A stretch of 64,000 nucleotides of DNA, taken from assembly GCA_022592445.1 (NCBI GenBank), contig JABYQR010000254.1, positions 1 through 64,000 on the forward strand, written 5' to 3'. The stretch is from Cytidiella melzeri (lineage: Eukaryota; Basidiomycota; Agaricomycetes; Polyporales; Irpicaceae). A program made the translations under genes and the position numbers. The notes under the pieces were generated by a model. It did not search any database. It was not told the DNA's origin and saw nothing but the letters and a program-made list of their open reading frames with translations. Positions 50,168 through 62,938 of this stretch are shown here, in pieces; within the stretch, counting starts at the first letter, position 1, and each line of letters opens with the position of its first letter.

Positions 50168-50872
50168 AGTACTACTATGGGTTAGGGGGTGTTCGTAAGA
50201 CTTCGGCGCTCAGCACATTGCGCTGGGAACACTCAACAAAATTTGTTTAAAAGTACATAAACCTGTGCGTGTGCATCTTGAAGATAAACCGTAATTTATT
50301 CAAGCGTTTTGAAGAGGAAGAGCGAGCTGCGGCAGGATGCCGGCGAGGGATACAAAAGAGAGGGAGTGTTCGTAAAAACGTCACGGTTGGTCACACCGGC
50401 ATCAGTCGGCAAATTTTCACTCTGACGCCAGACACAACGCGCAAACGCGCCGTTGCGACGAGGCTACAATATGCGTCCTGGCGGAGTTTGAACCGTGCTT
50501 GGTCTCAAAGTCACGCAAGTCTCGACAATGCTCGTAAACACTACTTTACGCATCTACTCAGACATATCGGGCTGCTGGAGCAGGTTGCATGGCAATATTT
50601 GTTACTATGCTCCCGCGAGACGGATTCAGAATATGCACTAGATCACCCCGAATCTCTCCCCATCAGTCCAAGTAGAGTGCAGAAACCCACCGCTTCGTCT
50701 CTAACGACCTCACACCTCATGTTTAAAATATATTTTTTACACCAAAAGAATTCTATAGTAGTCCTCTATTGCTCACAGCAGACTTGTAATATTTGGAGGT
50801 GCGGAATTATCGAACGTGGTAGTGTTCGTAAAAACAGGCGTTTACGAACACCCCCTAACCCATAGTAGTACT
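50168..50872. mobile_element. 705-bp TIR element (MITE-like)
   Basis: Inverted termini of about 31 bp, identical at 50168-50198 and 50842-50872 (AGTACTACTATGGGTTAGGG ...). GTGTTCGTAAAAAC also recurs internally at about 50367 and 50822. One frame (50269-50865) is open for 198 codons but runs into the right TIR and shows no transposase motif; I consider it accidental or an unknown cargo frame. Target duplication unclear because the ends are themselves palindromic (GTAC/TA). Confidence 0.65.
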
Positions 50873-55910: not shown

Positions 55911-56056
55911 TAGTCTCGTACCCAGACCCTCAAGCAGACGTCGCCAGGGCTCCTTTCCTGATCAAGCTGCGGAGTTCGAAAAAGACAGTACACTCCGCAG
56001 GCTTGAGGGTCTGGTGTACTTCGCGGAGAGGGGTAGGGATCACTCCCACGTGACGT
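55911..56056 (+). repeat. Left terminal inverted region with nested hairpin
   Basis: Outer TAGTCTCG (55911-55918). Hairpin arms CCAGACCCTCAAGC (55922-55935) and GCTTGAGGGTCTGG (56001-56014) pair perfectly over 14 bp. A second inner pair, CTGCGGAG (55967-55974) with CTCCGCAG (55993-56000), is stacked on the outer one. TTCGAAAAAGA lies in the loop. The 47-bp inner TIR begins at 56010. Confidence 0.7.
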
Positions 56057-56187
56057 CGATAGAGCCCATCATCGAGCGCCTAGATAATTGCAACGTCCGC
56101 GCGACGAGCACTTTGTTTTTCCGTACCACCGCGAATCCATTTTTGTTCCTCCCTTCTGCCTGATACTCGTGCGATAATAGACTCAAC

Positions 56188-59076
56188 ATGCAAGCCTCTG
56201 ATTTTCTTGACAACGGTGACCCTTTTTTCAACCTCGACGACGACGACAACGAATATCACGATGGAGAAGTCGAGCCATTGCCACCGGAAGCCCAGATGCA
56301 TGTCGACAACTCTTTCAAAACCGCGGGAGGGCCGCTTGCTCGAACGACCTTATTCATGAGCCACCTAAGTACCCTTACCAATGCGGATATCGCCCTCAAG
56401 ATGGCCAGCATCATCGAGCATATGGCCTCACTGCAGATGGACGTCACCACCTTCCTACATTTCTTGAGTTGGAATTTGAAGGTACCCGTTGACATGAAGC
56501 ATGAGGAGGGAACTATCAGGTATGTACTCAAATACAATAAGTTGTATCCATTTGACCTCAACTCTCGTCAAGATACGCTCGAACAGCGCTCATGCATAGC
56601 GAACAGCTGCCCGGCATCCTCAAGAACTGGCACAAGCCGCCACGACCACACAGCTGGGGTGTTCGCACTACGGCTGCTCGTAACGCTATGGACGATTGGG
56701 CGTTGGAGAATGTGACGGCACGCATCAATCGCGAGATGCGATTATTTGCGCCTCAGCTTTTGTCGCCGCCGCAGGACATCACTGAAGAATCCCTCCTTGC
56801 CACAAGACTCAAGGACGACATTCCCGCTATGCAAGCCACTCAGCCTACCTTTTGGAAGCTGATGCACTCGCTCTCGTGCACTCCGCTTCAGGCGAAGCGG
56901 AACAAGTACAAGAGCCACGAGCCGGTAAGATTGCTTCTCTCGTACCTCACCAATGCTGTACTGATCAATTTGCAGCGTATTTTCATTATCGGTGCAATGC
57001 TACACTATGGACGTTCCCACCACCGCTGCCGATATCAAAAATTTCTCAGCATCTATCTCAAGGCATCCGGACTTGCTGCGAAGGCAAACGACACCACGCA
57101 CCTCTTCGGACTCACGATGAGTCAGAAGTGGATTTACAAAGGCATCGAGCAGCTGTCCGACTCCAACCGCCAGCGCATGATGGACGACATCATCCGTTAC
57201 CTCTGGTTCGGCGGCCACGACAATCTCAACCTTGCGTTCAAGATCTACGAGCAGCGAGCCAACAAGCAGTCCCACTTCGACAACGGCACTGCGGGGACAA
57301 TATACATCGTGAAGGACACCTCCGTACCACCTCCAAATCGAATTGCGTACATGGAACAGCGAGCACGTGAGTGCAAAAATCCTATCACCGCACTCGAGAT
57401 CTTTCTCAAGGCCCGACACTTTGGACCTCGCCTCTATGAGCAACGCATTCATATAGTACTCAGCATACTCCTCGAAGCCCCCGAGTTTACAGACTGGGAG
57501 CACAAGGCCGATGCTGCGTTAGCCTGTCCCACGCCGGTTCAGCAGCTTCCTATTGGTCTGGAGCATGCTACCGTCCAGCATGTCCTTGACACTGTGCATA
57601 TGGAGGAGGGGACTCAGGAGGGTAACCGCCAAGTTATTGACGAGTGGAAGCGGCAGCTTGGCCTCACGGATGTCAAGGCAAGACAGGAGCCGATGGCGAA
57701 CAGGCTTATCGTTTGGGTAGGCGATCAGCTCACCACGATTCAGCTGCGGTTTGTCAAGAGAGATCGAGTGTTCGATCTCAACTTCATCCAGCGATTCGAG
57801 CAGTTCCTGGAAATATTCGGCTGGTTCCACGCTCAAATTGCCCAAGAGTTCTCGATGCACAAGCAGTATCTCGGCAGCAGCGAGAATCTCGGTCTCAAGC
57901 ACGCATTCGAAAATCTGAACCGCAAAGGGCTCAATACTACGTCAGTGCAAGGTGAGTTCTGCGATATATCCGAGAACTGTTTACTGATGAAGCTCTCATG
58001 CTAGGCAACTTTCATTATACCTTCCGCGAGGCGTTACGGCACACCGCTGAAGCTCGATTCCGAGACGTTTGGACGGTCGCGGCAGGTGTTGAAGAGCTCG
58101 CGGAGCTTCGTCAACGAACACCCCAAGAACTTCGAGATCTCGCGTGCAAGGTGGTTGACGAATACGCCTCTACAGAGGCTCTCGTCAAGCTTCGGCAACC
58201 TGACAAGTCTCGTTCCGCCCAAGATGATCTTTTTGATCTCAGCGTGCAATTCAATCGTGACACACTCGACTTCCTCGACTTGGACGACTGCATCCGAACG
58301 GGTGATGTAGGGCGCATGGAGTATTTACTTCCGCGGCTGCTGTTCCGCTTCCATGGTGGCGGAAACCACAAGTATGCACATGAATTACTCGAGCTGATGC
58401 AAGGCTTGTGGCGCGAGTGGCCCGATGATCTTAAGTACGTACCTGTTCCTTTGAGTACTCACCGCTGAACAATTATTACAGGTCGTTCGTGATGCGCTTC
58501 TGTTGGCTTGCCAACACCACAGGCAAAAAGAACTCATTCCTCGCCTTTGACATGGTGCAGGAACACAATATCCGAGATATTAAGGTACACTTCTCATCCT
58601 TGTCCTCATCGACCGAGCTTACAAGTTTTTAGGTTACATTTGCAACTTTGGGACCGTACGCAACATGGGATTACATCAAGAGGATGTCGGCATCAATTCC
58701 TACGCAACGTAAAATCAAGCATCACGTCGAACGTGAATTCAATCATTTCTGTCGCGGGCTGTCTCACACATCGCCAAGCCACCATGAGGACGTCGTTAAG
58801 CTGCAGGGGAAGTATCACGAGGCGAAGGCGCATGTCTTCAAGCCTGGTCGCCATCTAACATCGAACAACAAGGTTAAGGACGTTATGGCCCTTGGCTCTA
58901 ATCCAAAGACCCTGCAGGCGATGATTGACAGATGGACAGAGAGACGATTGACAGAGAAGTCGGACAAGGAAATATTTGACGATGTAGATACATTGGTCCA
59001 GAGGTACAAGGACTCGATGTCGGTGAGGGCAAACAAGACTCACACAGAGCCAAGCACGAGTGTAGCACAGAATTGA
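56188..59076 (+). CDS. DUF6589 domain protein, candidate mobility protein
   Basis: Exons 56188-56519, 56573-56924, 56976-57951, 58005-58434, 58482-58584 and 58633-59076, all with GT-AG introns of 47-53 bp and consistent phases, give 878 residues. The N-terminus is acidic (NLDDDDNEYHDGEVE). Residues ~90-300 are helical. DUF6589-like blocks: VWVGDQLTTIQLR (~472), FGWFHAQIAQEF and HKQYLGSSENLGLKHAF (~508-535), DLDDCIRTGDVGRM (~645), FHGGGNHKYAHELLELM (~668-684), CWLANTTGKKNSF and MVQEHNIRDIK (~702-728). The C-terminus is Lys/Glu-rich. DUF6589 is common and multicopy in Agaricomycetes; its biochemistry is not known to me. The order D (GDQLT), H (WFH), E (KYAHELLE) could be a nuclease-like active site, but that is inference. 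No stop or frameshift, so recently functional. Confidence 0.85.
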
Positions 59077-59110
59077 TAATATTCATGTACATACAACATT
59101 ATTTGCAGAA

Positions 59111-62100
59111 TCAGCTTGTAGACGAGCGCGGATCTGCTTTCCATCGAAACTTTGAACTGCTTTGAGGCGGTGTTGGATACAGGAAGGGAGTCTGCAAAGA
59201 CGAAGCGACAGGTGTCGATGTAGTGGTGGTGGGGGTATAGTAAGGCTGCCAAAGCGGCGCTGGAGCAATTGTGCTATGAGCTGAAGGCAACGGGTATACA
59301 TGCGCTGGGCTTGTGGGAGAGGTCATGGAAATATGCGACAATGAGGTAACGGATGCTGGAGGACTGGGCATTTGAGTATAGTACATGGGAGGCCAAGGTT
59401 GCAACACAGGCGTATGAGGCGTTAAGGGCAAGTATCCGGGTGTGACATGCTGAGACGTAGCATTGGGTGTATGCGGAACTGATGATGTCGGGCCTGAATA
59501 AGTGGATACAAAGGGAAAGGGGCTGGCTGGTTGTGCTGCAGGAGGAAGATAGACAGGAGTTGCGGGGGCATCAGGAGGGAGATAGACGGGAGTTGCGGGG
59601 GTATGAATAGTGCTGCTTTGAAGAACAAGTGTCGAAGCTCCCATCGGATTGGCATAATAAGCTGGGGATAGCGTTGTAGTCTGTACTTCTCCAGGTTGTT
59701 TGCGCGGCTTTCCTCCTTTTGCAAAGCGCTTTACCTCGCGTTCTCCTGCGCGACGCTCACGTTCTTTTTCTTCTGTGATAGGCTTCATGTGTATCGTTTC
59801 AGCCTTGCGTTCAGCTGCGCGCGATTGTATACCTGACTTGTTTTCTTGAGCCAATCAGCATCCAGTTCTGCAATATGAGAGAGAGCACCCGGGCCAAGCT
59901 CCGAAGCAAAAGTCCAGCCGGGCAGAGCTAGGTTCAGATCGTCCATAGTCCTGATCTTAGCCTCAGATGCGAGAGTAGCTAGTACGTCGTCAGGCAGAAG
60001 AGTTGCTGGCAGAAACCCAGATTGTCGGTCGGATTCACGCCAGTAAGTATCTCGGAAGGCAAGTAGAGCAGTCTTGACGGAAGCTGCGCGGGCGCGGTTG
60101 CGTTTTGGGATCTCGGTCAAGAGCTGCTGCTGAGTGAAGTCATCAGGGCCAACTGGAGGAAGGATAGTAACCTCCGTTAGTCTGGCATTTAGGCGACGAA
60201 TGAGGTTGAGAATCGCAACGTCATGTTCATTGATAGGACAGTCGAAATTGTGGCCTTTGCTGAGCAGACAATTGTCGCAGCAAATGACAATGCGTTCTGA
60301 AGGAATTTGAAAGGTCAGTAGAGCACGTCATGTTTGATAGAACTTGCCTTGCAGCGGCGGATCTGGGTTCTCAAAGTGTTGTCTCATAACCGCGCCACGA
60401 CAGGACTCAGTAATAATGTACTCCCGCATGGTTGGCTCCATCTTCTTGCGATACTCGACGTCGGGATCATTCTCTAAGTCATCTTCTGGCATGTTGGCTG
60501 GATTTGCGATCACATGGTTGCTATCCTCTTGGTCGGCGTGCTGTACCTGTTCAACCCCTTGTGCCTGATCTTCTTGTCGCTTTCGCTTCGGCCGAGGTGG
60601 TACAGCCTCATCTATGTCTTCTTCCTTAACACTCGCCGTCGTGATAGCCCTTGTATTTTCTTTTGCTTGTGAGGCCTGTGGCTGGCGTTTCTTGGTCTGT
60701 TCAAAAACCGACGGCTCGACCAGCATCAAGGAGAAGGCCGACATGCCGTTGCGTCCTGCACGTCCAGCATGCTGTGCCCATTCAACTACACTTCTAGTAG
60801 CCTGAAACTGAATAGTTCGGGGAAGATGTGGAACGTCGAGACCCTACAAATAGGTGAGACATTGATTGCTTTGCATGACATGAAAATATGCTTACCATTC
60901 CTGCGGACTCTGTCGCAATGACTATCTTAATGCCTCCAAGCATAAACAACTGAATGACGAGCTGCTTCACTACGGAATCGCGTGTTGAGATGACAAAGTC
61001 AATTTGCTCCCGAAGAGGTGAGTCGCGAGGGATCTGTCGGAGAAGATAAAGCCAGATTCGGATGGCAAGCTCGCGTGTGTTGACATAGATCAGTGCAGGA
61101 ACCAGTTCATCACCAGCGAGGCCTTCATCCAAGACAAAGTCCAGCGCGCCGTAGTCCGATGGACTCTTGAGTCGACAAACGACTGCGGTGATATTGTGAC
61201 GTTCGTTTCCCAAGTTGAGAACGAACATTCTTTCCCGTGAGAACGCAAGCTTGTTAAGCAGCTCACGGAGCATGTCTGGAGTAAGTGTGGCGGTGCAGAA
61301 AAAGATGGGTTTGCGAGTCATAAGTGAGCGCGTTTTCTCGACTTCACCAAAGTCTCGCCGGAACTCTTTCCCCCATTCCAGAACGCAGTGGGCCTCGTCA
61401 ATCACCGTGGCTACAACATTCTTCATCCAGTACGCGCTTCGAACAAGCAGGGAGAATCGAGGGTGCCGGAAGATCATCTCGGGGGAGGTAATAATGGCCC
61501 GGATCTCGTCGTTCTCAAGTCTCTGATCAAGAAATGGTGAGACAATTCATCTGGGACAATAACTTGACTGACCTTGTGAAGTTCATCGGAATATGTCTCC
61601 CCGTTTACAGCGGCTGCCTCAATTCCCCTGCGACTAAATCTTGCTGCCTGGTATGAGCGCATATAGTGAGTTTTGAGTGTAATTTCGTCTAACAAGGCTC
61701 ACCTGGTCGACTTCAAGCGCATTGAGCGTTGAGATGACAATTATCTTGCTCTTACCAGTAGGGTCCGCAAAGAGCATGAGCATGAACGCTTCTGTCTTTC
61801 CGGAGCCAGTGCTGCAGATCAAACCGGTGTCGATCCCAAGAAATGCAGCTTCGGCGCAGTCTTTTTGATACCACCGAGGAACCATACCACCCGTCCGATA
61901 ACTCAGCTCGGACTCCATTCGTACTTGGGTGATGAACGAGGAGTAACGGCGATCCTTGTCCTTGGTCGCGGCTTCTCTAGCCTCCTCGAGTGTCTGATAG
62001 GAACTAATGTGCTGCTTTGTCTTTGGGCACGCAGGAGGCAAGAGATTTTCGCCCTCAGTTTGAGGCTTTTCTGCATCTTTTACGGAGCTATCAGGACCTT

Positions 62101-62185
62101 GAGTTGTAGTGAGGGCGTTGCGCCGGACAGACTTTGACGTCGAAGACCTCTTATTAGCAGTAGGGAGCGGAGCGGAGCGCATCAT
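59111..62185 (-). CDS. RecQ-like DExH-box DNA helicase with proline-rich tail
   Basis: Exons (minus) 62185-61703, 61647-61573, 61522-60896, 60843-60348, 60296-59838 and 59772-59111 join in phase to 933 residues. Introns are 50-65 bp; the one at 60347-60297 is GC-AG. Motifs: WYQKDCAEA then Walker A CSTGSGKTEA (~122-131), VISTLNALEVDQ, ITSPEMIFRH, DEAHCVLEWG (~226), FFCTATLTP (~260; motif III with TAT for SAT), IVIATESAGMGLDVPHL (~385-403), WAQHAGRAGRNG (~415-426, motif VI). After the core: a Lys/Glu-rich linker, ERIVICCDNC (Cys cluster, possible RecQ-like zinc site), a helical region, and a ~220-residue Pro/Thr/Ser-rich tail. A RecQ-type enzyme would unwind DNA 3'-5'. The last splice (GTCAGG...CACAG, 59837-59773) is the least certain; without it the protein ends after LNARLKRYT. 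Faces the DUF6589 gene with 34 bp between ends. Confidence 0.85.
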
Positions 62186-62566
62186 GATGGAATATAGCAG
62201 TAAACGAGTGGGTTAAAGCATATTATTATAAGCTAATAACCTATAGGAGCTTTTGAGGGAAGGGACCGAGGACAGAGCGAGGGAGAGAGGATGGGAGCGC
62301 AGGTCGCGCGAGCACGATAATAATAAACGCCCGATAATGGACGCGTTGTGGACGCGTCGCGTCGCGTCAGGTAGCTTCAAGTCGTCTGTGGGCTCGGGGA
62401 TTGAGAGTACACACTATTCAACTTTCTTGGCATTAGGTTATGACTATACAAATGAAATGGCCTCCAAGCTTTGTCGATAGGATCGACAGTGGCCAGTCTT
62501 AAATTACTTTACTGTACGGCCACTCGGCGCTTGCAACGGACGTGTGTGTGGTGAATGCGATCAGAT

Positions 62567-62692
62567 ACATCACGTGGGGGTGATCACTACCCCTCTCTAC
62601 GAAATTCACCAGACGTTTAGCTGCCTCTCCGTCTTCTCTTTTTCGAACCCCGCCCCCAAATAGGCAAAGCTAAACGGCTGGTTCCGAGACTA
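62567..62692 (-). repeat. Right terminal inverted region with hairpin
   Basis: Read inward (minus): TAGTCTCG (62692-62685), CCAGCCGTTTAGCT pairing with AGCTAAACGTCTGG (13 of 14 positions), TTCGAAAAAGA between them, then the 47-bp inner TIR 62613-62567. The arm sequences differ from those on the left but the pairing is kept. Confidence 0.7.
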
Positions 62693-62938
62693 ACTACACA
62701 CTACATAATACACACCCCCGGAAAAGGAAGGTGAGGTCAATCGATCGGTGGTGAGGCTTTGATTTACCACAAACACTCGTCACAGCGCACTCTACACCAT
62801 CCATTAATTCCTCTTGACCACAAACACTCCATCCCAGTACTAAACAGTATTACTCGCATACTAAAAAGAAGCTTAGATAGCAGCATGAACGAACAAATCC
62901 AAAGTAAGGGTGTACAGCAGCCACACAGAAACTATAAT
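62693..62938. other. 3' flank of the PEX11-like gene
   Basis: Short non-coding interval between the candidate transposon and the PEX11-like gene; a direct repeat of CACAAACACTC lies at about 62767 and 62819. Confidence 0.4.

Follow-up and report, generated by a model that had tools for sequence, protein, structure and literature searches.

AcademH, a lineage of helicase-encoding Academ transposons (Kojima 2020, Mob DNA 11:15), has been reported from animals and fungi (PMC10799480, PMC10045372); in Basidiomycota, Ascomycota and Mucoromycota its elements have low copy numbers (PMC10799480). AcademH duplications are 9 or 10 bp long, whereas AcademX, with a nuclease instead of a helicase, makes duplications of 3 or 4 bp (PMC10045372). 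KolobokH likewise combines a DDE (Asp-Asp-Glu) transposase with a RecQ helicase in fungi (PMC9587614). Here we describe a 6782-bp element in a 64,000-nt stretch of the Cytidiella melzeri genome (contig JABYQR010000254.1, positions 1 to 64,000, forward strand; hereafter the window), which carries a DUF6589 (PF20231) gene and a RecQ-like helicase gene. Judged by the published description, it is very probably an AcademH-type DNA transposon, with a predicted DDE transposase and a RecQ-like helicase. The literature searched mentions neither DUF6589 nor Cytidiella melzeri.

Copies, ends and 9-bp duplications

The element is multicopy and its ends are fixed; most of the related insertions lie between 9-bp duplications. 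Its limits are as follows.

55911-62692, strand not applicable: whole element, 6782 bp, delimited by copies, terminal sequences and a duplication scan
55911-56056, plus strand: left end, with TAGTCTCG, fold-back arms at 55922-55935 and 56001-56014, and inner inverted block at 56009-56056
62567-62692, minus strand: right end, with CGAGACTA, fold-back arms at 62608-62622 and 62668-62682, and inner inverted block at 62567-62614

The outermost 8 bp read TAGTCTCG on the left and CGAGACTA on the right. The 48-nt inner inverted blocks are 85% complementary and a second inverted block of 17 nt (55969-55985 and 62637-62653) reaches 94%; the DUF6589 gene on the plus strand and the helicase gene on the minus strand converge between these inverted ends. 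A search of the C. melzeri genome with the element gave at least 87 matches, including three further near-full-length copies (C352, C667 and C168) of 99-100% identity as well as diverged and short relatives. All three copies have both terminal sequences unchanged and different flanks, and their alignments to the window end at 55911 on the left and 62692-62693 on the right, except that the C352 alignment extends 10 bases further left. Chance is excluded as the source of the ends. A preliminary description of this DNA, made from its letters, had proposed enclosing inverted ends; these were confirmed, further copies share them, and homology among the copies respects the ends rather than ignoring them.

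A terminal-motif scan of the first 28 loci extracted from the genome, the window copy among them, yielded 21 facing pairs, with no facing pair in the remaining 13 loci. Exact 9-bp direct repeats were present outside the ends of 11 of the 21 pairs: C352 (GGTACCAAC), C667 (CCTTCCCAC), C159 (ACCCTCAAG), C115 (GCTCCCTGC), C49 (GCTCCCTGA), C132 (TATCCCTGG), C151 (TATTATCGC), C22 (ACCTCTCGG), C112 (GATGTGGCG), C141 (GTGCTCTCG) and C128 (CTGAGCCCC). The duplicated sequence varies between insertions, and repeats of other lengths from 4 to 12 bp occurred at none of the facing pairs. Of the ten pairs lacking a 9-bp repeat, one is the window copy and one C168; six are additional pairings within loci counted before, and in the other two, L021 and L022, the start of the pair looks element-internal.

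At C159 (L006, 2849-4151), a 1181-bp relative interrupts a copy of the window element's family at its left end. After removal of this relative and one 9-bp repeat, the flanks align gaplessly at the junction to the window left end (93.97%, 1393 columns), so that the site before insertion is visible, judging from this alignment. Searches with the joined flanks for empty alleles of the C667 and C141 insertions recovered their own halves and, for C667, four short matches at 81-84%, but no empty allele.

Two side observations concern these nested loci. The copy that hosts the 1181-bp relative has its terminal 22 bp repeated in tandem, and the C22 relative with the duplication ACCTCTCGG (L019, 511-7290) lies 24 bp inward from the end of another family member.

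For the window copy itself, the scan for direct repeats outside the ends detected no target-site duplication. From 62764 to its end at 69990, the window contig (C173) matches C168 at >99% (C168:52037-59264), and the right flank is therefore duplicated; the roughly 70 bases adjoining the element on the right differ from C168. The left flanks of the two copies are not parallel, the sole match beside the C168 element being 352 bp at 77% (window 50518-50869). Either a misjoined contig or rearrangement through the element would account for this pattern.

Several segments of the window between 9625 and 45212, each some 720-760 bp long, align at 86-91% identity to the same sites next to the C667 copy, and therefore another repeat family is present.

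The DUF6589 product as a predicted DDE transposase

The DUF6589 gene and the proposed catalytic residues, located by alignment and model, are placed as follows.

56188-59076, plus strand: DUF6589 (PF20231) gene, 878 amino acids, predicted DDE transposase
56188-56519, 56573-56924, 56976-57951, 58005-58434, 58482-58584 and 58633-59076, plus strand: its six exons
57219-57221, plus strand: codon of D310, proposed first catalytic Asp, on the first strand of the RNase H-like fold
57723-57725, plus strand: codon of D478, proposed second catalytic Asp, just past the fourth strand
58382-58384, plus strand: codon of E680, proposed catalytic Glu, in the helix after an all-helical insertion

The product is identical to the deposited C. 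melzeri protein P0001 (100% over 100%), and the frame is 878 amino acids long in three of the copies (window, C352, C667) and 275 in C168. Structure prediction, which the preliminary description had suggested as a check, gave an RNase H-like fold whose best structural matches are the Hermes, P-element and Transib transposases, Hermes being the closest, with 6-9% identity over the aligned residues; Foldseek alone returned no significant match for the model. In the predicted structure an all-helical insertion splits the RNase H fold ahead of the proposed Glu, a likeness to hAT (Hermes), P-element and Transib transposases; the DUF6589 element differs from these in its paired helicase gene, in long helices between strands 2 and 3, and in lacking C/DxxH. 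Among 37 sequences, position 310 is Asp in 35, position 478 is Asp in 36 with one gap, and position 680 is Glu in 36 with one gap. The C/DxxH motif between D478 and E680, a feature of both hAT and Mutator-like (MuDR) transposases, reached no more than 3% of the sequences at any of the columns tested, while 33 of the 37 have a Gly at the third residue ahead of H513. At E 0.001 or better, Pfam reported DUF6589 only and no MULE domain.

A profile search built on 37 of the first 47 matches (the 10 shorter ones were omitted) reached further DUF6589 proteins, fungal or unnamed. Among the matches listed, no animal protein was named, and none bore an Academ name or a Pfam domain besides PF20231. Protein and profile searches together placed PF20231 members in many mushroom-forming fungi. 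The fold and the conserved triad point to a predicted RNase H-fold DDE transposase, and DUF6589 is probably the DNA-cleaving and joining enzyme of the element, as the preliminary description had proposed.

A recurring partner: the RecQ-like helicase gene

In the C. melzeri genome, DUF6589 matched at least 120 pieces, which form at least 82 loci, and helicase pieces numbered at least 85 by protein search and at least 96 with Helicase_C, together at least 118 clusters. Among the loci listed, a helicase lay within 5 kb at 48 of the 82 DUF6589 loci, tail-to-tail at 47, where random placement would give about 2.1; with the protein search alone, one lay within 8 kb at 29 of 82 (28 tail-to-tail; about 1.1 expected), all these pairing counts being approximate. 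Far from never being neighbours, the two genes thus recur as a pair.

Compared with seven diverged copies, the ratio of nonsynonymous to synonymous change (pN/pS) was 0.20-0.40 for the transposase of the window, and for the helicase 0.30-0.51 in six diverged copies and 0.73 over 140 codons in C93, with synonymous sites near saturation. In Irpex rosettiformis, both listed DUF6589 matches lie on contigs of the same sizes (536,420 and 358,818) as contigs with a listed helicase match. No such coincidence appeared among the matches listed for nine further species with both matches (six named Mycena and one unnamed, Hygrophoropsis aurantiaca and Leucogyrophana mollusca).

The helicase gene is arranged as follows.

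59785-62185, minus strand: RecQ-like superfamily-2 helicase gene, five-exon model, 730 amino acids in the window copy
62185-61703, 61647-61573, 61522-60896, 60843-60348 and 60296-59785, minus strand: its exons
59840, minus strand: 1-nt deletion when compared with the three further near-full-length copies, cutting the helicase frame after the core
59111-59784, minus strand: rest of the helicase coding region at its 3' side, in frame in C352 and outside the five-exon model of the window

The protein has the Pfam domains DEAD and Helicase_C, and its nearest solved structures are BLM and RecQ. The intron boundaries of the five-exon model were found in all four near-full-length copies, including the GC-AG boundary of the fourth intron (60297-60347). 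With this model the helicase is 955 amino acids long in C352, 730 in the window, 702 in C168 and 213 in C667; the window product stops at 730 because of the 1-nt deletion near 59840. Two intact six-exon genes had been described at the outset. The plus-strand DUF6589 gene has indeed six exons and 878 codons, but the minus-strand helicase, given as 933 codons, is modelled with five exons and has a frame broken in the window copy by the deletion, and a sixth exon requires an extra intron (59804-59832) directly beside that deletion. In C352, both reading frames are open between 9-bp duplications.

A strongly diverged DUF6589 protein also stands beside a tail-to-tail helicase at L039 (C724:12000-19500). 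By eye, it keeps YDN, GDQ and the Glu of NELLE; none of the 13 inverted pairs reported there resembled element ends.

Fold-back at the element ends

Complementarity between an outer arm (about positions 10-27) and an inner arm (ending at 84-111) is seen at 20 of the 23 ends examined. The ends without a regular fold-back are C248 R, C22 511>, where an insertion intervenes, and C22 387>, where the sole arm is a distant one. Against 150 dinucleotide shuffles per end, a control in which the ends are related and the tests not independent, the fold-back score was reached by no shuffle at 13 ends, the left and right ends of the window copy included; by 1-3 shuffles at four ends; by 8-18 at another four (C49 R, C132 R, C151 L and C121 L); and by 59-75 at two. 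The arm sequences differ between families while their complementarity is kept (CCAGACCCTCAAGC with GCTTGAGGGTCTGG, ACCAGACGTTAAGG with CCTTAACGTCTGGT, CCAGACGTCTAGGC with GCCTAGACGTCTGG). We take the fold-back at each end for a hairpin or for two putative transposase sites.

Probable assignment to AcademH and alternative explanations

Three AcademH features are present in the element by description. Duplications of 9 bp, within the 9 or 10 bp published for this lineage, flank 11 insertions exactly, the window copy and C168 being without; the helicase partner is represented by the DEAD and Helicase_C protein nearest to BLM and RecQ and by the recurring pair; and a DDD/E transposase is predicted from fold and conserved triad. 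The element can therefore be placed in a known kind of transposon, a helicase-encoding one recorded in fungi including Basidiomycota, a placement that goes by published description. If the assignment holds, AcademX belongs to the same superfamily. The overall kind is, according to citing papers, already known, having been described in 2020 as AcademH, and the earlier proposal of an undescribed type with no accepted superfamily is not supported. Its view that the two genes and their ends form one mobile unit is supported by the copies, the 9-bp duplications and the recurring gene pair.

That DUF6589 elements are a DDE superfamily of their own, which acquired the RecQ-like helicase and 9-bp duplications independently and is only AcademH-like, seems unlikely to us. 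It would fit the absence of DUF6589 from the literature searched and the lack of any Academ name or other Pfam domain among the matches listed. The nuclease of AcademX is of the XPG type, and the XPG matches in the C. melzeri genome (eight XPG_I, seven XPG_N) all lie more than 10 kb from any DUF6589 locus, which also fits a separate superfamily; the literature searched contained nothing on Academ transposons with XPG. However, a helicase, a fungal host and 9-bp duplications are together the set published for AcademH, and a second independent origin of this set is less parsimonious. An elaborated form of the idea, to which we give only a slight chance, is that the transposase of such a superfamily reads the fold-back as outer and inner inverted sites 45-75 nt apart, and that the helicase obligatorily opens it, so that copy-out or repair-coupled replication multiplies the element.

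The remaining explanations fare worse than AcademH against the same observations. Duplications of 9 bp are typical of Mutator-like elements, and the predicted fold is nearest to the hAT transposase Hermes, yet capture of a helicase by a Mutator-like or hAT-like element is very improbable: Pfam gives DUF6589 only, and we rejected both for the missing C/DxxH. A pair of host genes that happens to lie between inverted sequences and was copied by segmental duplication could account for the single duplicated flank from 62764 to the contig end; this is the least probable explanation and was rejected, as copies stand at different flanks with 9-bp duplications, diverged families have the same gene pair, and short relatives share the ends. 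A KolobokH element, finally, would also encode a RecQ helicase, and the group has been found only in fungi, but it would be expected to have TTAA 4-bp duplications and C/DxxH (PMC9587614). The DUF6589 elements have varied 9-bp duplications and virtually no C/DxxH, and with length and motif both contradicting it, KolobokH is highly unlikely and was rejected.

Proposed mechanism and implications

For an element of the AcademH kind, we propose that transposase subunits would bind the inverted site pair of the fold-back at each end and cleave the DNA beside TAGTCTCG; they would join the 3' ends to the target strands at positions offset by 9 bp. Unwinding by the RecQ-like helicase, of the ends or of a gapped or forked product, may help the insertion to be repaired or replicated. 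Short relatives with the ends but lacking one or both genes could have been mobilised in trans.

The fold-back at most ends and the probable function for PF20231 may be new. Since both genes can be read through in at least C352, which also has the 9-bp duplications, that copy would allow a direct test of what the helicase does in AcademH-type transposition. PF20231 is listed as a family of unknown function; given the evidence for a predicted DDE transposase, many hypothetical proteins could be relabelled as transposon genes.
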